NCBI RefSeq assembly: GCF_916618755.1
Contig: NZ_CAKAKB010000001.1
Coordinates: forward strand, 248,001-312,000
Direction: 5' to 3'
Length of the DNA stretch: 64,000 nucleotides
Source: Actinotalea sp. Marseille-Q4924
Lineage (GTDB): Bacteria; Actinomycetota; Actinomycetes; Actinomycetales; Cellulomonadaceae
Shown: in pieces, positions 5,391 through 47,131 of the stretch
How positions within the stretch are numbered: position 1 is the first letter of the stretch
Layout of the letters: each line of letters begins with the position of its first letter
Made by a program: the position numbers and the translations under genes
Notes under the pieces: generated by a model
Database searches by the model: none
Told to the model about the DNA's origin: nothing
Seen by the model: only the letters and a program-made list of their open reading frames with translations

Positions 5391-5900
5391 TCAGGCCCCG
5401 TCGCCGGGCCGGTCCTGCAGCGCGGCCCACTGGGCGAAGGTGAGGTCCCGGCCGATGATCGTCGGGGTGCGGAACGGCCACGAGTCGGCGACCCAGCGCG
5501 GCAGGTCCTCCGCGAGGGTGCGCTCCAGGTCCGTGCCGACGGCGTCGTCGACGACCCACCACGCGATCTCGGCGTCGGCTCCGGGAACCGTGTCGGGCGG
5601 GTCGACGTAGACGCAACCCAGCAGCTGCGTCTCCTCCGCGTCCAGCACGGCGTAGTTGTAGGACGAGCGCTTCCGCATCTCGTCCTCGTGGTACTCCAGG
5701 TCCTCGAGGTCCTGCTCGCGCGTCATCGTCGCGGGCGGCCAGCCCCAGACGGGGCCGAAGAGGCTGAACAGCCGTTCCTGCGACCCCATGACGGCGACCA
5801 TGTCGATGTCGACGTCGGCCGCACGGATCGGCCGGAGGTGGTGGCCCGTCGCCAGGTCCAGTCGCGCAGGGGGCTCGAAGTCGTCGGGGAGCCAGCTCAT
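5391..5900 (-). CDS. GNAT-like N-acetyltransferase
   Basis: A protein of 169 aa. The N-terminal LATGHHLRPIRAADVDIDMVAVMGS and the central NYAVLDAEETQLLGCVYVDPP strand pair resemble the GNAT fold, followed by an acidic AEIAWWVVDDAVGTDLERTL helix. A textbook acetyl-CoA Q/R-x-x-G-x-G/A loop is not obvious, so the substrate and even catalysis are uncertain. The ATG at 5900 is chosen because TACCGT sits six bases upstream (leaderless). The upstream gap holds a 13-bp inverted repeat. Confidence 0.75.
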   Translation of the reverse strand: MSWLPDDFEPPARLDLATGHHLRPIRAADVDIDMVAVMGSQERLFSLFGPVWGWPPATMTREQDLEDLEYHEDEMRKRSSYNYAVLDAEETQLLGCVYVDPPDTVPGADAEIAWWVVDDAVGTDLERTLAEDLPRWVADSWPFRTPTIIGRDLTFAQWAALQDRPGDGA

Positions 5901-5906
5901 GGACGG

Positions 5907-5912
5907 ACGGTA
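5907..5912 (-). promoter_or_regulatory. -10 box TACCGT, leaderless promoter of the GNAT gene
   Basis: On the minus strand TACCGT is followed by ccgtcc and the ATG at 5900. Confidence 0.55.
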
Positions 5913-5941
5913 TCCCCGCTGCCCGCCGCTCCCCGTCGCCT

Positions 5942-5983
5942 TTCTCGACCATTCCGCGACCTGGGTGACCGAATGGTCGAGAA
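5942..5983. repeat. 13-bp perfect inverted repeat with 16-nt spacer
   Basis: ttctcgaccattc (5942-5954) and gaatggtcgagaa (5971-5983) are perfect reverse complements. The arms are markedly AT-richer than their surroundings and no T-run follows. The element lies 30 bp upstream of the -10 box of the GNAT gene and 95 bp past the rhodanese gene, so it could be an operator, a terminator or a small repeat element. Confidence 0.8.
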
Positions 5984-6078
5984 GCGCGATGTCCGGACGT
6001 CGGGGGCGCGAGGCGGCGATGCGGGAGGCGCGAGGCGGGCCGTGCCGGGGGGCGCGGCGGGCGGCGGGGGCTGGAGGG

Positions 6079-8993: not shown

Positions 8994-9189
8994 CGTCGCT
9001 CCTTCAGGCCGCGCTGCCCGGTCGGTTCGACGGTAGACCGTGCGCCGTCCGGGAGAGGCCGAACGGGGAGCCCGGTGCGGCGGGTCGTCCGGCAGGGTGA
9101 CGGCGCCCCGCCGGGCGACCGTTCCGATGAAGGTTCGATGAAGGACGCGCTTGCGGGAACAGGACGGAGGGTGGGACGGTTGGCGAAGG

Positions 9190-9204
9190 TACCCCAGGGG
9201 GGTA
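9190..9204. promoter_or_regulatory. CsoR-type operator upstream of the CopB ATPase
   Basis: The pseudo-palindrome TACCCC-agg-GGGGTA lies 16 bp before the ATG of the copper ATPase gene. G-tract palindromes of this form are the known binding sites of the copper sensor CsoR. The three-base centre is one base longer than in the sites at 14914 and 47087. No csoR gene is in this window. Confidence 0.7.
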
Positions 9205-9220
9205 TCGAGAGGAGTCGACG

Positions 9221-11374
9221 ATGAGCATGCACCACGACCACGACCACGACGCGTCGGTCGCCGCCGCTCCCGCGGCGCAGGCGCACCACGGGCACACCGG
9301 GCACAGCGGCCACGCGGGGCACAGCGCCAGCGGGCATGGTGGGCCGGAGACGCAGCACGGGGAGTCCGCCGCCCAGGCCCATGCCGGCCACGGGAACGCC
9401 GGCCACGGCGACCACGCCGCGCAGTTCCGGGAGCGCTTCTGGGTCAGCCTCGTCCTGGCGGTCCCCGTCGTGCTCTTCAGCGAGATGTTCGCCGACCTGC
9501 TCGGGTACATGCCGCCGTCGTTCCCCGGCTCGACCTGGATCTCACCGGTGCTCGGCACCGTGGTGTACCTCTACGGCGGTCGGCCCTTCCTCACCGGTGC
9601 CGTCACCGAGGCGCGGGCCCGCAAGCCCGGGATGATGCTGCTGGTCGCACTTGCGATCACCGTCGCGTTCGTCGCGTCGTGGGCCACGACCCTCGGGTTC
9701 ACCGACTCGCTCGACTTCTGGTGGGAGCTCGCGCTCCTCGTCGTGATCATGCTTCTCGGGCACTGGCTCGAGATGCGAGCCCTCGGCGCGGCGTCCGGTG
9801 CGCTCGACGCGCTCGCGGCACTGCTCCCCGACCTCGCGGAGAGGATCACCGACGACGGAACGGTCGAGGTGCCGCTGGACGAGCTGCGCACGGGCGACGT
9901 CGTCCTCGTCCGCGCCGGCGGGCGCGTGCCGGCCGACGGCGTCATCGTCGACGGCAGCTCGCACATGGACGAGGCCATGATCACGGGGGAGTCCCGCCCG
10001 GTGCGCCGAGGTCCGGGCGACCAGGTCGTCGGCGGCACGGTCGCGACCGACTCCACGCTGCGCGTCGAGGTCACCGCGATCGGTGCGGACACCGCGCTCG
10101 CGGGCATCCAGCGGCTCGTGGCCGACGCGCAGGCGTCGAGCTCCCGCGCGCAGGCGCTCGCCGACCGCGCCGCGGGCTTCCTGTTCTGGTTCGCGCTCGG
10201 CGTCGGCGTCGTGACATTCGTCGTCTGGGCGCTGCTCGGTGACATGCCGGACGCCGTCGAGCGGACCGTCACGGTCCTCGTCATCGCCTGCCCCCACGCC
10301 CTCGGCCTGGCCATCCCGCTCGTCATCGCCATCTCCACCGAGCGGGCCGCCCGCGCCGGCGTCCTGGTCAAGGACCGGCTCGCCCTGGAGCGGATGCGCA
10401 CGGTCGACACCGTGCTCTTCGACAAGACCGGCACCCTGACGACGGGCCGGCTGACGCTGGTCGGGCACGCCGCGACCGCGGGCACGACCGACGACGAGCT
10501 GCTGGCTCTCGCCGCGGCCGTCGAGGCGGACAGCGAGCACCCCGTCGCGCGCGCCGTCGTGGCGGCCCACTCGGGCGAGCGGCCGACCGTGCGCGACTTC
10601 CGGACCCTGCCGGGCCGGGGCGTCCAGGCCGTCGTCGGCGGGCGCACCGTCCACGTCGGCGGGCCGGCGCTGCTGGCCGAGCTCGACGCCACCGTGCCGC
10701 AGGACCTCACCGGCCCGACGGCGCGCTGGCAGGAGCAGGCGGCGAGCGTGCTGCACGTCGTCGTCGACGGCCGGGTGGTCGGTGCGCTTGCCGTCGCGGA
10801 TGCCATCCGGCCGGAGTCGAAGGCCGCCGTGGACGCCCTGCACCGCCACGGCGTGCGCGTCGCGATGGTGACGGGCGACGCCCGGCACGTCGCGGAGGCG
10901 GTCGCCACGCAGCTCGGCATCGACGAGGTGTTCGCCGAGGTGCTGCCGGACCAGAAGGACGCGAAGGTCGCGGAGCTCCAGGCGCGCGGGCGCAAGGTCG
11001 CGATGGCCGGTGACGGCGTCAACGACGCACCCGCGCTGACCAGGGCCGACGTCGGCATCGCCGTCGGCGCCGGCACGGACGTCGCGATCGAGTCCGCGGG
11101 TGTGGTGCTGGCCTCGGACGACCCGCGCGGGGTCGTGTCGGTCATCGCCCTGTCCAAGGCGTCCTACCGGAAGATGTGGCAGAACCTCGTCTGGGCGACC
11201 GGGTACAACCTCATCGCCGTGCCGCTGGCGGCGGGTGTCCTGGCCTGGGCAGGCTTCGTGCTCTCGCCGGCGGTCGGGGCGATCCTCATGTCGGTCTCGA
11301 CCATCGTGGTCGCGCTCAACGCCCAGCTGCTGCGGCGCCTGGACCTGGACCCGGCGCGGGTCACGGCGAGCTGA
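9221..11374 (+). CDS. copB: Copper-translocating P-type ATPase, P1B-3 (CopB-like)
   Basis: A 717-aa protein. The first 65 residues are a His-rich metal-binding tail with many HxH and GH repeats and no CxxC ferredoxin-like domain. The membrane domain carries the CPH motif (CPHALGLAIP, about residue 357), which defines the P1B-3 class. The actuator TGES is near 255, the phosphorylated Asp in DKTGTLT near 403, then HP (SEHPVARAV) and GDGVNDAPAL. It exports copper or silver across the plasma membrane using ATP. A GAGAGGAG ribosome site and a CsoR-like operator lie immediately upstream, and a strong hairpin follows. Confidence 0.93.
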   Translation: MSMHHDHDHDASVAAAPAAQAHHGHTGHSGHAGHSASGHGGPETQHGESAAQAHAGHGNAGHGDHAAQFRERFWVSLVLAVPVVLFSEMFADLLGYMPPSFPGSTWISPVLGTVVYLYGGRPFLTGAVTEARARKPGMMLLVALAITVAFVASWATTLGFTDSLDFWWELALLVVIMLLGHWLEMRALGAASGALDALAALLPDLAERITDDGTVEVPLDELRTGDVVLVRAGGRVPADGVIVDGSSHMDEAMITGESRPVRRGPGDQVVGGTVATDSTLRVEVTAIGADTALAGIQRLVADAQASSSRAQALADRAAGFLFWFALGVGVVTFVVWALLGDMPDAVERTVTVLVIACPHALGLAIPLVIAISTERAARAGVLVKDRLALERMRTVDTVLFDKTGTLTTGRLTLVGHAATAGTTDDELLALAAAVEADSEHPVARAVVAAHSGERPTVRDFRTLPGRGVQAVVGGRTVHVGGPALLAELDATVPQDLTGPTARWQEQAASVLHVVVDGRVVGALAVADAIRPESKAAVDALHRHGVRVAMVTGDARHVAEAVATQLGIDEVFAEVLPDQKDAKVAELQARGRKVAMAGDGVNDAPALTRADVGIAVGAGTDVAIESAGVVLASDDPRGVVSVIALSKASYRKMWQNLVWATGYNLIAVPLAAGVLAWAGFVLSPAVGAILMSVSTIVVALNAQLLRRLDLDPARVTAS

Positions 11375-14226: not shown

Positions 14227-14316
14227 TGGCGGTAGCGGTGGGATTTGAACCCACGGTGGACTTTCACCCACACACGCTTTCGAGGCGTGCTCCTTAGGCC
14301 GCTCGGACACGCTACC
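14227..14316 (-). tRNA. tRNA-Ser (anticodon CGA), CCA encoded
   Basis: The minus strand folds as a class II tRNA. The 7-bp acceptor stem is GGTAGCG with CGCTACC, the anticodon arm is CACGC-CTCGAAA-GCGTG, there is a long variable arm (tgtgggtgaaagtccacc) and the T-loop is GGTTCAAATCC. The anticodon CGA reads UCG. A G discriminator base and a genome-encoded CCA (complement of 14227-14229) complete the 3' end. Confidence 0.97.
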
Positions 14317-14381
14317 TCGCCGGTGAGGATAGCCCGTGGCGAGCGCTGGTCCCAATCCGGCCCCGGCACCGCCGTCGGGCG

Positions 14382-14771
14382 TCACCCGGTGGAGCAGGCG
14401 ACCACCGGGGCGGTGCGGCGCTGGACCACGCCGAAGACGACGATCGCGAGCGCGGCCAGCGCCATGGAGGTGCTGCCGGGGACGGAGGCGACGAGCAGGC
14501 CGGCGCCCACGGTCGTCAGAGCGGGCATCGCCGCGCACGGTCCGCAGCCGACGGCGTCGCGGACCGTCTGACCCGCTCGGGGCACGACGTCGCTGAGGAC
14601 AGCCGCGCCGGCCACCGCCACCACGCCGACGACGGCGATCCACGCAGGCCCGGCGCCGGGCCCGCCGCCGAGGCCGAGGTAGATGACGAAGAGCAGCGGC
14701 GCGAGCCCCAGGCCGGCGAGGAGGCGCCGGACGTCCGGGCCGCGCCGCGGTGTGCTCAGCGGCAGGTGCAC
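14382..14771 (-). CDS. Small membrane protein of the sulfur module
   Basis: About 129 aa with three hydrophobic segments: LLAGLGLAPLLFVIYLGL, WIAVVGVVAVAGAAVLSDVV and ALTTVGAGLLVASV/MALAALAIVVFGVV. A CGPCAAMPAL motif precedes the last pair, giving a Cys-x2-Cys close to the membrane face. The GTG start at 14771 overlaps the end of the 38-aa gene by 16 bases and is not certain. It is the distal gene of the leftward arm of the divergent persulfide-type operon. I do not recognise a named family; sulfur or thiol handling is inferred from context only. Confidence 0.6.
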   Translation of the reverse strand: MHLPLSTPRRGPDVRRLLAGLGLAPLLFVIYLGLGGGPGAGPAWIAVVGVVAVAGAAVLSDVVPRAGQTVRDAVGCGPCAAMPALTTVGAGLLVASVPGSTSMALAALAIVVFGVVQRRTAPVVACSTG

Positions 14772-14872
14772 CGCTGCGCCGTCGGGACGGAGGCGAAGAC
14801 GGCGTCCACGTGCTGGCCGCAACCGGACCAGGTGACCTTGCCGCAGGAAGAGCAACGAGCGGGGCTGCACAC
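14756..14872 (-). CDS. 38-aa cysteine-rich mini-protein
   Basis: A very short gene starting at GTG 14872 with a strong GAAGGAG seven bases upstream. The protein holds six cysteines in 38 residues (C2, C7, C10, C18, C35, C37) plus His21, in a zinc-ribbon-like order: CSSC-GK near the start, GCGQH in the middle and CTC at the end. It is the first gene leftward from the CsoR/CstR-type palindrome, opposite a rhodanese gene. It may bind metal or carry sulfur. The start, ribosome site and G/C-rich third positions support it as real; the function is unknown. Confidence 0.7.
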   Translation of the reverse strand: MCSPARCSSCGKVTWSGCGQHVDAVFASVPTAQRCTCR

Positions 14873-14910
14873 AGCACTTCTCCTTCGTGACGATCCTCGG
14901 GGTTGAGGAG

Positions 14911-14932
14911 AACATACCCCCGGGGGTATAGT
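14911..14932. promoter_or_regulatory. Divergent promoter with perfect CsoR/CstR-type operator
   Basis: ATACCCCCGGGGGTAT (14914-14929) is a perfect 16-bp palindrome. Each end runs into a -10-like hexamer: TATAGT rightward (14927-14932) and TATGTT leftward (complement of 14911-14916). A repressor bound here would cover both -10 boxes. The sequence matches the known CstR/CsoR operator form ATACCCC-nn-GGGGTAT. In this gene context the persulfide sensor CstR is the better guess than the copper sensor. Confidence 0.78.
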
Positions 14933-14967
14933 CGGAACAACCCGAGCACCGTGGAGGACCGACAGCC

Positions 14968-15282
14968 ATGTCCGAAGTGAGCATCGAGCAGCTCGCTGCC
15001 GCCCGAACGGCCGGCGCGTACGTCGTGGACGTCCGGGAGCCGCAGGAGTACGTCGGCGGACACGTCCCCGGCGCCGTCCTCGTCCCGATGTCCCAGCTCG
15101 CCGCCCGTGTCGGGGAGCTGCCCACCGACCGCCCGCTCTACCTGATCTGCCGCAGCGGCAACCGCAGCCTGCAGGTCACCACCGCGCTGCGCGCGCACGG
15201 CTACGACGCGGTCTCGGTCCGCGGCGGCACCGAGGCGTGGATCGCCTCGGGCCGCCCCACCGTCATCGGCGCCGACGCCTGA
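14968..15282 (+). CDS. Single-domain rhodanese sulfurtransferase
   Basis: A 104-aa cytoplasmic rhodanese with DVREPQEYVGGHVPGAVLVP and the active-site loop CRSGNRS (Cys61), which takes up sulfane sulfur as a persulfide. It has no signal peptide. A GGAGG site supports the ATG. It is the first gene of the rightward arm of the divergent operon, 36 bp after the putative -10 box, and precedes the MBL-rhodanese fusion by 42 bp, which suggests sulfur transfer between the two. Confidence 0.93.
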   Translation: MSEVSIEQLAAARTAGAYVVDVREPQEYVGGHVPGAVLVPMSQLAARVGELPTDRPLYLICRSGNRSLQVTTALRAHGYDAVSVRGGTEAWIASGRPTVIGADA

Positions 15283-15324
15283 GCGCATCCGACCCGACCA
15301 GCAGACCAGCCTGAGGAGCCAGCC

Positions 15325-16683
15325 ATGGCCATCACGATCATCCCCATCGCCACCCCGAGCCTCGGCGACCGCAGCTACGTCGTCCACGACGGCGAGGTCG
15401 CCTTCGTCGTCGACCCGCAGCGCGACATCGACCGGGTGCTCGCCCTCGTGCACGAGCACGGCGTCCGCATCACCGACGTCTTCGAGACGCACATCCACAA
15501 CGACTACGTCACCGGCGGCTACGCGCTCGCGCAGCAGGTCGGCGCCCGCTACCACGTCAACGCCGACGACGCCGTGTCCTACGAGCGCGACGAGATCCGC
15601 GACGGCGACGTCGTCGAGGTGAGCCCCGCGCTGCACGTCCGCGCCGTCCACACGCCCGGCCACACCTACACGCACCTGTCCTACGTCCTGGAGGGCGACG
15701 AGCCCGTCGTCTTCTCCGGCGGCTCGCTGTTGTTCGGCTCGACGGGACGGCCCGACCTCCTCGGTGAGGAGCACAAGCACGAGCTCGCCCGCCACCAGTA
15801 CCGGTCCGCCCGCACGCTCGCCACGCTGCCGGACGAGACGGTCGTCATGCCGACCCACGGGTTCGGCTCGTTCTGCGCCGCGACGTCCGCCGGCGAGACC
15901 ACCGACTCCTCCACGATCGGTCGCGAACGCCGGGTCAACCCCGTGCTCAGCCAGGACGAGGAGGACTACGTCGCCGGCGTCATCGCCGGCCTGGACGCCT
16001 ACCCGGCGTACTACGTGCACATGGGCCCCGCGAACGCCGCCGGCCCGGACCCCGCGGACCTCAGCGCGCCGCAGCGCGCCGACAAGGACGAGCTGCGGCG
16101 CCGTCTGGAGGCGGGGGAGTGGCTCGTCGACCTGCGCCACCGCACCGCGTTCGCGGCCGGCCACGTCCCGCGCACGGTGAACATGGGTCTGGACGGGCAG
16201 TTCGCGACCTACCTCGGCTGGCTCATCCCGTGGGGGACTCCGGTGACGCTGCTCGCCGAGACGCCCGAGCAGGTCGCCGAGGCGCAGCGTGAGCTGGTGC
16301 GCATCGGGATCGACCGACCGGCCGCGCAGGCCACCGGGCGTCCGGAGGACTGGACCGACGAGCCCCTCGCCACCCTGTCGACGGCGACCTTCGCGGACCT
16401 GGCGCAGGTGCGTCACCACCGCGAGGTGACGGTGCTCGACGTGCGCCGGGTCAACGAGTGGCGCGACGGCCACCTGGTCGGGGCGGTGCACATCCCCCTG
16501 CACGACCTCCTGGAGCGCATGGACGAGCTGCCCGACGGCGAGATCTGGGTGCACTGCGCGTCCGGGTACCGGTCCTCGATCGCCTCCTCGCTCATCGCCG
16601 CGTCCGGCCGCCGCGTCGTGGCGGTCAACGACACCTACGCCACCTCCGCCGAGAAGGCCGGCCTGGCCGTCGAGGCGGCGTGA
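15325..16683 (+). CDS. MBL-fold persulfide dioxygenase/sulfurtransferase fusion (CstB-like)
   Basis: A 452-aa three-domain protein. The metallo-beta-lactamase domain (1-240) has the HIHNDY iron-site motif (His56, His58, Asp60) and HTPGHTYTH, as in ETHE1/CstB enzymes that oxidise persulfides. A first rhodanese-like domain (about 255-340) lacks a catalytic Cys in its loop (TLLAETPEQ). The final rhodanese domain (about 350-445) has the active loop HCASGYRSS (Cys411). This layout equals CstB, which converts low-molecular-weight persulfides to thiosulfate. The next gene overlaps its stop codon. Confidence 0.9.
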   Translation: MAITIIPIATPSLGDRSYVVHDGEVAFVVDPQRDIDRVLALVHEHGVRITDVFETHIHNDYVTGGYALAQQVGARYHVNADDAVSYERDEIRDGDVVEVSPALHVRAVHTPGHTYTHLSYVLEGDEPVVFSGGSLLFGSTGRPDLLGEEHKHELARHQYRSARTLATLPDETVVMPTHGFGSFCAATSAGETTDSSTIGRERRVNPVLSQDEEDYVAGVIAGLDAYPAYYVHMGPANAAGPDPADLSAPQRADKDELRRRLEAGEWLVDLRHRTAFAAGHVPRTVNMGLDGQFATYLGWLIPWGTPVTLLAETPEQVAEAQRELVRIGIDRPAAQATGRPEDWTDEPLATLSTATFADLAQVRHHREVTVLDVRRVNEWRDGHLVGAVHIPLHDLLERMDELPDGEIWVHCASGYRSSIASSLIAASGRRVVAVNDTYATSAEKAGLAVEAA

Positions 16684-17276
16684 GCGGCGTCGTCGGCACC
16701 CCGGCGAGCCGGGGCGTCGTCGACCGGGTGCGGCGGGAGGTGGTGGCCACGCCCCGGGAGCTCGGGATCGCGCTGCGCGCCTGGACGCCTCGGCAGGTCG
16801 GTGCGGCGGTGCTGCTCGCGGGGGCGTTCGCCCTCCTGCTCGGCATCCCCACCGTGCTCATCCCGAACCCGGTGTTCGGGCGGGAGATCCCCGTCGTGGC
16901 GTGGAACTACCCGGTGTGGATCGCGTCGGCGGCGCTCGCCGGCATGCTCGCCGCGACCTACGTCCGGCCCTCGGCGTCGCGGGTGTCCGGCCCCGACGCG
17001 GCCGACGACGCCCCGGACGCCGCCGCCCCGAGCCGGGCCGCCCTGGCCGGCGGCATCCTCACGTGGTTCGCGGTGGGCTGCCCCGTCTGCAACAAGATCG
17101 CCCTCCTGGCGCTCGGCTACTCCGGGGCGCTGACGTGGTTCGCCCCGGTCCAGCCGTACCTCGCCGCGGCGGCCCTCCTCCTCCCGGCGGGTGCGCTGGT
17201 CGTCCGCCTGCGCGGGCAGGTCTCCTGCCCGACCCCGAGGCGCCCTCGCACCCCGGCACCCACGACGACGGCCTGA
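16680..17276 (+). CDS. Membrane protein with GCPVCN motif, sulfur module
   Basis: A 198-aa protein starting at a GTG that overlaps the preceding stop (GTGA). Four hydrophobic segments are visible: VGAAVLLAGAFALLLGIP, WIASAALAGMLAATYV, ILTWFAVGCPVCNKIALLALG and YLAAAALLLPAGALVV. The GCPVCNK motif within or next to the third segment gives a Cys-x2-Cys pair, echoing the CGPC of the membrane protein on the other arm. An Asp/Ala-rich loop separates segments 2 and 3. The function is unknown; a role in sulfur or thiol transport or redox is inferred. Confidence 0.8.
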   Translation: MSGVVGTPASRGVVDRVRREVVATPRELGIALRAWTPRQVGAAVLLAGAFALLLGIPTVLIPNPVFGREIPVVAWNYPVWIASAALAGMLAATYVRPSASRVSGPDAADDAPDAAAPSRAALAGGILTWFAVGCPVCNKIALLALGYSGALTWFAPVQPYLAAAALLLPAGALVVRLRGQVSCPTPRRPRTPAPTTTA

Positions 17277-46271: not shown

Positions 46272-46676
46272 TCAGCGGGCGCCGACCTGCTCGAGCGCCT
46301 CCCGCGCGGACCGCAGGCGCGCCGCGGCGTCGTCGGCGACCGCGGTCACGCCGGGGTTCGCCGTGACCTCGCTCATGATCTGCGGGTCCAGGAAGTCGAC
46401 GCCGGTGCGACCGGCCCCCAAATCGCGAACGACGACGTTGCACGGCAGCAGGAGACCGATGGTCTCCTCCGCCTGCAGGGCCCGGTGGGCCAGCGGCGGG
46501 TTGCACGCGCCCAGGATCACCTGGCGCGGGATCTCCACGTCGAGCTTCTCCTTGAGGGTCGCCGACATGTCGATCTCGGTGAGCACGCCGAAGCCCTGGT
46601 CCTTGAGGGCAGCACGGGTGGCCTCGACCGCCTCGTCGAACGGACGGTCGAGGACCGTGCTGATCGCGTAGCCCAT
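46272..46676 (-). CDS. DUF302 domain protein
   Basis: A 134-aa protein with the DUF302 pattern MGYAISTVLDRPFDEAVEATRAALKDQGFGVLTEID, VILGACNPPLAHRALQAEETIGLLLPCNVVV and VDFLDPQIM. The ACNP and LPCNVVV cysteines are the conserved pair of this family, which is often encoded with sulfur and redox genes. Its ATG overlaps the thioredoxin stop (ATGA), so it is translationally coupled to it and shares its CstR-type operator. Confidence 0.9.
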   Translation of the reverse strand: MGYAISTVLDRPFDEAVEATRAALKDQGFGVLTEIDMSATLKEKLDVEIPRQVILGACNPPLAHRALQAEETIGLLLPCNVVVRDLGAGRTGVDFLDPQIMSEVTANPGVTAVADDAAARLRSAREALEQVGAR

Positions 46677-47038
46677 CAGGCGTCGGCCTTCGCGAGCTCG
46701 GCGCGGACCTCGTCCATGTCGAGGCCCTGTGCCTGCGTGATGAGGTCCTTGAGCGCGTTGCCGGGCAGCGCGCCGGGCTGGGCGAAGAGCAGGATGCCCT
46801 CGCGGAAGATCATGAGGGTCGGGATCGAGCTGATCCCGGCCTGAGCGGCGAGCATCTGCTCCGCCTCGGTGTCCACCTTGCCGAAGACGACGTCCTGGTG
46901 CTTCTCGGACGCGGCCTCGTAGACGGGGGCGAACATGCGGCACGGGCCGCACCACGCGGCCCACCAGTCCACGAGGACCAGCTTGTCGGACTCGATGGTG
47001 CTCTCGAAGGTCTCGGCGGTCAGGTCGACGGTCGCCAT
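46676..47038 (-). CDS. Thioredoxin
   Basis: A 120-aa thioredoxin with the active site WCGPC (Cys30, Cys33), VDWWAAWCG before it, and SSIPTLMIF with the cis-Pro loop. A C-terminal extension of about 15 residues (GLDMDEVRAELAKADA) matches the Trx/DUF302-linked group. It reduces disulfides and also persulfides. GAGAGGAG precedes the ATG, and the CstR-type palindrome lies about 50 bp upstream. Confidence 0.95.
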   Translation of the reverse strand: MATVDLTAETFESTIESDKLVLVDWWAAWCGPCRMFAPVYEAASEKHQDVVFGKVDTEAEQMLAAQAGISSIPTLMIFREGILLFAQPGALPGNALKDLITQAQGLDMDEVRAELAKADA

Positions 47039-47083: not shown

Positions 47084-47102
47084 ACTATACCCCTGGGGGT
47101 AT
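47084..47102. promoter_or_regulatory. CstR/CsoR-type operator overlapping the thioredoxin -10 box
   Basis: ATACCCC-tg-GGGGTAT (47087-47102) matches the site at 14914 in both half-sites and spacing. On the minus strand it runs into TATAGT (complement of 47084-47089), the same -10 hexamer as at 14927, placed 46 bp before the thioredoxin ATG. Confidence 0.75.
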
Positions 47103-47131
47103 CAACGGAGCGAGGGTGACGAGCATTCCCC

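Follow-up and report, generated by a model that had tools for sequence, protein, structure and literature searches.

Which repressor would sit on the palindrome that parts two divergent gene sets in Actinotalea sp. Marseille-Q4924, and which signal would lift it off, is the question raised by the stretch of DNA analysed here (64,000 nucleotides of contig NZ_CAKAKB010000001.1, positions 248,001 to 312,000, hereafter the window; coordinates are those of the window unless a contig label such as C4 precedes them). The perfect 16 base pair (bp) palindrome ATACCCCCGGGGGTAT, of the form ATACC-N6-GGTAT, lies about midway in a 95-bp gap (14873-14967), 38 bp from the ATG of a rhodanese gene on one side and 41 bp from the GTG of a microprotein gene on the other. 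It is very probably the operator of a CstR-type repressor encoded on another contig (C4:156118), from which both arms would be repressed and, on persulfide, released, and a like 16-bp site precedes a thioredoxin gene and a rhodanese-cstR operon. A first-pass annotation had already reported the palindrome, which is read directly in the sequence at 14914-14929, as are the hexamers that flank it (TATAGT at 14927-14932 on the plus strand and TATGTT at 14916-14911 on the minus strand); the rhodanese and CstB-like genes that it had placed beside the palindrome are confirmed by their family and structure matches. The features of the locus are the following.

14914 to 14929, strand not assigned: the palindrome, proposed CstR operator on motif counts and gene context.
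14968 to 15282, plus strand: single-domain rhodanese (PF00581, expectation value (E) 7e-18).
15325 to 16683, plus strand: CstB-like persulfide dioxygenase, combining metallo-beta-lactamase and rhodanese domains (3tp9 and 3r2u are matched over nearly the whole length).
16680 to 17276 (start approximate), plus strand: membrane protein with a GCPVCNK motif, likely the third gene of the rightward operon (no Pfam family).
14756 to 14872, minus strand: Cys-rich microprotein of 38 amino acids, from a GTG start at 14872 to a stop ending at 14756 (no Pfam or NCBIfam model).
14382 to 14759, minus strand: small membrane protein with a GCGPC motif and three hydrophobic segments (no Pfam or NCBIfam family).
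14903 to 14932, plus strand: sigma-70-like promoter TTGAGG-18-TATAGT of the rightward arm, its -10 overlapping the palindrome (9/12; 0.0 in shuffles).
14911 to 14940, minus strand: weak promoter candidate TTGTTC-18-TATGTT of the leftward arm (7/12, by eye).

When up to three mismatches were allowed, the motif occurred twice in the window against 0.05 copies expected from shuffles, and at 10 places in the whole genome against one for the backwards control. Judged by context, three of these 10 are convincing, namely 14914-14929, 47087-47102 and C4:156769, and each of them reads as GGGGTATAGT in the direction of a gene. The last precedes a rhodanese-CstR-like operon; the second stands before a thioredoxin gene in the window.

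47087 to 47102, strand not assigned: second 16-bp site ATACCCCTGGGGGTAT (motif search of the window).
46676 to 47038, minus strand: thioredoxin gene behind that site (profile match).

Among the places set aside, the match at C1:34613 is inside a coding frame, C2:521809 (a fourth match to the pattern ATACCCCNNGGGGTAT) adjoins tRNA-like sequence, and the search with our gene set found nothing relevant near the others, which carry two or three mismatches.

The genome has three CsoR-family genes, on C1, C3 and C4. The C4 protein matches PF02583 (E 8e-22) and has the features of a CstR: C35 and C64 lie 29 residues apart, four residues ahead of the second Cys, where CsoR has its His, there is a Gly, and its gene forms an operon with rhodaneses that carries a 16-bp site at its own promoter. 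Its best match in the PDB is 7mq1 (E 3e-14), which we take to be the pneumococcal CstR, though the record is named CsoR. The C1 and C3 proteins keep the copper-ligand His, and their genes have copper-type ATPase genes and others like copZ as neighbours (seen by eye, and for C1 also by gene-set search); the best PDB match of the C3 protein is 4adz (E 4e-29), presumably the CsoR of Streptomyces lividans. Between cstR and a rhodanese gene of locus L014 (about 5860-6019, minus strand) we noticed a short frame that by eye looks like the rhodanese portion at the C-terminus of a coenzyme A (CoA)-disulfide reductase; since CoA-disulfide-reductase-like genes follow 16-bp sites in relatives, it appears to be a remnant.

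In the mechanism that we propose, reduced CstR bound at 14914-14929 would lie over the spacer and the -10 box of the sigma-70-type promoter on the right, as well as over the start region of the leftward genes, and would thereby repress the rhodanese, CstB-like and membrane protein genes in one direction and the microprotein and membrane protein genes in the other. Persulfide or polysulfide would modify the paired C35 and C64, the repressor would leave the DNA, and both arms would be induced together with the thioredoxin gene and the rhodanese-cstR operon, which carry the other 16-bp sites. We infer the binding of CstR, the persulfide effector and the double repression by one site from the Streptomyces coelicolor precedent (described below) and from the composition of the regulon.

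Whether the site serves both arms depends first on the promoters. On the rightward side the palindrome, an ATACC-N6-GGTAT site with a G-tract, overlaps the promoter of the sulfur genes, and TTGAGG-18-TATAGT was the only promoter-like match that the promoter search gave in 14300-15400. The hexamers by which the palindrome overlaps both -10 boxes are present as first reported; the minus-strand promoter is weak. The terminal TAT of the palindrome supplies half of each -10, so that TATxxT needs one more matching base per side. In related genomes TATxxT stands on 34/63 gene-bearing sides of 16-bp sites against 12/46 gene-less sides (p = 0.006), and on 24/67 against 9/66 sides of 17-bp sites (p = 0.005); because it is commoner on the gene-bearing sides, the overlap of operator and -10 is best regarded as a tendency. 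A double overlap at the palindrome is plausible, less striking than it appears, and its minus-strand half would not be strong taken alone.

Several points weigh against the repression of both arms by one bound CstR. The promoter search of 14300-15400 did not report the minus-strand TTGTTC-18-TATGTT, and in five related genomes (L160, L333, L336, L352 and L355) the rhodanese-dioxygenase module behind a 16-bp site has a SigR-type promoter upstream of the site (GGAAT-N18-GTT in L333, L336 and L355 and, by eye, in L160; GGAAC-N18-GTT, by eye, in L352). These five modules show that what is conserved in the arrangement is not the -10 overlap; it looks as if the operator was kept while the type of promoter varied, two of the five promoters being read by eye. 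Leftward genes lie opposite the module in only two of the five genomes, L160 with a broken microprotein and L355 with a membrane protein and no recognised microprotein, and among the window and those five genomes the window alone has a divergent arm with a whole microprotein.

SigR-type promoters, whose consensus GGAAT-N18-GTT is given in the available text of PMC2375139, go with both operator types (for example at 47104-47129 in the window, and in L313, L333, L355 and L441). They occur on 31/156 gene-bearing sides (11/88 for 16-bp and 20/68 for 17-bp sites) against 1/242 opposite sides, and among the 20 17-bp cases there are 13 in which, by eye, the SigR spacer is taken up by the operator. 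The thioredoxin gene of the window has GGAAT-N18-GTT directly before its 16-bp site; at the 14914 site there is none on either strand.

The explanation that survives best beside double repression is that only the rhodanese-CstB operon on the right is under the operator, with a separate promoter for the microprotein arm and TATGTT there by chance. The 7/12 score of the minus-strand promoter and the presence of TATxxT on a quarter or so of the gene-less sides (the 12/46 above) speak for it. However, a 16-bp site lies within 300 bp upstream of the microprotein gene in 48 of 113 copies under the strict and 54 of 113 under the relaxed pattern (backwards control 0), the genes without an adjoining site are mostly inside a cstR/rhodanese cluster, and nothing but the shared 95 bp separates the microprotein gene of the window from the divergent rhodanese gene; we regard this explanation as unlikely.

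The microprotein is itself widespread. Relatives were found in 91/121 genomes of the family, in 48/396 genomes of the phylum at E 1e-4 (possibly a lower bound, at most 16 candidates having been scored per genome) and, in a named genome collection, in at least 593 stretches, the best 80 of which include Cellulomonas, Cryobacterium, Sinomonas, Rhodococcus, Corynebacterium and mycobacteria. Residues M1, C2, C7, C10, W15, G17, C18, G19, H21 and C35 are invariant in 52 aligned members. Among the 113 copies, 49 are 38-39 amino acids long and 62 have at least 46, most of the latter ending in an FFxRLFGR-like sequence. Of the 106 family loci, 99 have enough flank to be read over 3 kilobases (kb), a count that leaves out L269-L298 with their flanks of about 1.5 kb; a relaxed 16-bp site lies within that span in 84 (the backwards pattern in 2), a cstR-like gene in 72, one or the other in 93, and six show no sulfur feature. 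For 66 of the 80 named loci, a set that shares some genomes with the family set, the figures are 59 with a site (backwards 3), 39 with a cstR-like gene, 59 with either and four with none.

The microprotein of the window matched no Pfam or NCBIfam family, and a few of the 52 members gave weak matches, the best in Pfam being RNA_pol_N (two members, E 0.0009) and the best in NCBIfam that of one member (E 0.0017); neither the curated families nor the solved folds place it with zinc ribbons or metallothioneins. The fold search in the PDB gave no match (best E 4.4), and the profile search of the PDB nothing below E 0.05 (best E 0.05). An AlphaFold2 model shows a beta-hairpin and a helix (mean predicted local distance difference test 82, predicted template modelling score 0.49). 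The arrangement of Cys and His residues in the microprotein points to a small thiol protein that may bind metal or persulfide. In the same-genus genome G079 (L160, 4089-4133, minus strand) a divergent copy has an in-frame stop, while the operator and the rhodanese-dioxygenase module are kept.

As for the other genes of the two arms, the product of 15325-16683 has the architecture of CstB, a metallo-beta-lactamase dioxygenase domain followed by rhodanese domains, from which its activity is predicted. The start of the leftward membrane protein is uncertain (a CTG overlapping the microprotein stop), and a tRNA-Ser gene lies beyond the leftward pair at 14316-14227. The GCGPC and GCPVCNK membrane proteins, one per arm, may be membrane thiol partners.

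The second question is the signal, and here the spacing of the half-sites appears decisive. The palindrome has TAC-N8-GTA where copper operators have TAC-N9-GTA (17 bp), and its genes are sulfur genes. The copper loci of this genome carry 17-bp sites, ATACCCCCCTACGGTAT at the C1 copper operon, ATACCCCTGGTCGGTAT at the C3 copper locus and a third in the window, whereas all three sulfur sites are 16 bp.

9189 to 9205, strand not assigned: 17-bp copper-type site GTACCCCAGGGGGGTAT, preceding the ATPase gene at 9221.
9221 to 11374, plus strand: His-rich copper-type P-type ATPase that follows the 17-bp site and by eye resembles CopB.

The patterns were searched in 121 genomes of the family, 76 of which have ATACCCCNNGGGGTAT (backwards control 0), and in 295 genomes of the class. 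We examined 29 + 30 family loci and 59 class loci, plus 60 regions from the family listings (29 with 16-bp and 31 with 17-bp sites) that skipped sites in loci already examined, so that the examined sites are part of those listed; the class sample (L389-L447) includes two loci of a family-f1 genome (L391 and L421). Sites were classed in a second round by the genes reading away from them within a limit of 1000 bp, with detection of transfer RNA (tRNA) genes added. In the family, 16-bp sites comprised at least 54 sulfur, 0 copper, 2 mixed, 5 without class and 6 in tRNA genes, and 17-bp sites at least 41 copper, 1 sulfur, 7 mixed, 11 without class and 10 in tRNA genes. The class sample gave at least 29 sulfur, 0 copper, 3 without class and 2 in tRNA genes for 16 bp, at least 23 copper, 1 sulfur, 4 without class and 4 in tRNA genes for 17 bp, and one 15-bp site without class. 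With one entry site per tool-chosen locus (114/118 loci), the 16-bp sites were 47 sulfur, 2 copper and 6 none, and the 17-bp sites 42 copper, 1 sulfur and 16 none. The 22 sampled sites that overlap tRNA genes, in family and class together, mimic the operator at either spacing and need to be removed before counting.

The strength of this split has to be tempered. Fisher tests give p = 2e-26 for the family and 4e-14 for the class sample, values that are overstated since the genomes are related. The second round was made after seeing the first and added CoA-disulfide-reductase and sulfide:quinone-reductase seeds, on which the sulfur class of 23 of the 54 16-bp family sites rests; the former seed has TIGR03385 as its best match (E 3e-117, below its cut-off), and the latter matches its family weakly (E 5e-12). 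In the first round 31 of the 16-bp family sites were classed as sulfur and 2 as copper, both copper sites with copA about 1.1 kb away, and the sites without class at 16 and 17 bp numbered 32 and 22 in the family and 9 and 8 in the class sample.

Four of the five class-less 16-bp family sites precede thiol-redox genes (YgaP-like in L335, DsbD-like in L339, glutaredoxin in L354 and VKOR in L330). Both mixed 16-bp family sites and the seventh mixed 17-bp site belong to L332, where a single intergenic region has 16-bp sites on its thioredoxin/rhodanese side and a 17-bp site on its copper-ATPase side; in the other six mixed 17-bp sites, copZ stands beside a flavin adenine dinucleotide (FAD)-reductase match (L380, L385 and L387). 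In the family, the only 17-bp site of the sulfur class (L368) precedes a ferredoxin-reductase-like gene, the sulfur profile being loose, and its counterpart in the class sample (L430) a gene for a CsoR-family protein that keeps the His. When the length was left open (ATACC-N2..14-GGTAT, 41 genomes), the matches listed comprised 75 sites from 12 genomes, and a hand count of them gave 21 of 16 bp and 22 of 17 bp, the others being of 15 bp (7), 14 bp (2), 18 bp (7), 20 bp (6), 21 bp (3), 22 bp (5) and 12 bp (2). It thus appears that one bp of spacing separates two paralogous regulons, those of CstR and CsoR, and would be what lets the paralogues discriminate; because the 16-bp spacing goes with sulfur genes and the 17-bp spacing with copper genes, the palindrome is marked as CstR-type.

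Two further observations concern the distribution of the sites. Several small genomes of the families f95, f100 and f102 have many 16-bp and few 17-bp sites in the ATACCC/GGGTAT patterns (7/0 in G623 and G697, 6/0 in G638, 7/1 in G555 and 6/1 in G577, with the reverse, 1/5, in G615), which would fit an enlarged persulfide regulon in the former. Some 17-bp sites without class precede a gene for a DHA2-type major facilitator superfamily (MFS) transporter (tested in L372; by eye in L325, L327 and L432) or for a family-less small protein beginning TPGLTACSLCAGETLG (L372 and L374), both of which are possibly unrecognised copper genes.

A copper regulon, in which a His-containing CsoR (of C1 or C3) binds the palindrome and copper induces the sulfur genes, is what the spacing speaks against. 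Such a protein is of the same family as CstR and uses the same ATACC/GGTAT half-sites, and the palindrome lies 3.5 kb from the end of a gene for a copper-type P-type ATPase. However, that ATPase and the other copper loci of the genome carry 17-bp sites, for which we reject a copper CsoR as the regulator, and none of the singly assigned 16-bp sites in either sample was of the copper class, save for the two first-round cases with their distant copA; we consider this explanation very unlikely. The attribution to CstR rather than CsoR, made by the first-pass annotation from the neighbouring genes, is instead supported by the site copies at the cstR-like operon and the thioredoxin gene, by the His-less, Cys-paired C4 protein, by the sulfur/copper split in relatives and by the S. 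coelicolor precedent (available text of PMC7533328). That the palindrome is a chance or structural element, such as a terminator or hairpin, has next to no likelihood and was rejected: it is a GC-rich inverted repeat, but the search of 14300-15400 found no terminator-like site, the two window copies far exceed the shuffle expectation, the backwards control is empty over 121 genomes and the gene context is steady.

In Staphylococcus aureus, the genes for sulfurtransferases and CstB are repressed by CstR, a sensor of persulfide and polysulfide, and the Actinotalea locus resembles that system in joining a CstR-type repressor with sulfurtransferase and CstB genes. That repressor is said to control probably a single operon (PMC5480029), whereas a distributed regulon is proposed here; this statement and those that follow rely on the available text of each paper. 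The closest precedent is ScCsoR (SCO0620) of S. coelicolor, which has the two Cys C37 and C66, binds ATACCn6GGTAT, is released by polysulfide, and controls its own gene along with those of a persulfide dioxygenase and a rhodanese; the authors call its site highly similar to those of Geobacillus CsoR and Mycobacterium tuberculosis RicR (PMC7533328). The 16-bp length, the two Cys 29 residues apart and the single site in a divergent intergenic region are shared, but the S. coelicolor regulator gene flanks its site and ours is on another contig, our site stands between a rhodanese/CstB-like operon and a microprotein pair and may serve two -10 boxes, and the available text of PMC7533328 mentions no microprotein. 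The copper operators of S. lividans CsoR, TAC-X9-GTA before the csoR and copZA genes, are likewise G-tract pseudopalindromes with a TAC/GTA dyad, but are 17 bp in the count used here (PMC3902906). In Thermus, TTHA1953 belongs to the CsoR family and represses sulfur genes, and its DNA site, as here, is distinct from that of its copper paralogue; its motif TACNNTACNNNNGTANNGTA is without a G-tract, and there is no one-base difference in spacing (PMC10318464). The divergent operator is of a known type, and what is added is the spacing rule, which we did not find in the available text of the literature searched and which may be in print elsewhere, together with the microprotein.

Since the sister repressors CsoR and CstR here share their half-sites within one cell, something must keep the copper and persulfide signals apart. 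Taken jointly, our data allow the tentative view, which we would put somewhat short of probable, that in actinomycetes a single bp of operator spacing (ATACC-N6-GGTAT against ATACC-N7-GGTAT) shields the CstR-controlled persulfide regulon from the CsoR-controlled copper regulon, and that the persulfide regulon includes the Cys-rich microprotein (invariant C2, C7, C10, W15, C18, H21 and C35), which would carry sulfane sulfur or be a thiol-metal partner for the dioxygenase and the rhodaneses. The split between 16 and 17 bp provides a predictive rule, readable from sequence and testable by the insertion or deletion of one base, with which copper and persulfide regulons can be annotated together across actinomycetes, and the microprotein is an unnamed, widely conserved candidate component of bacterial persulfide handling.
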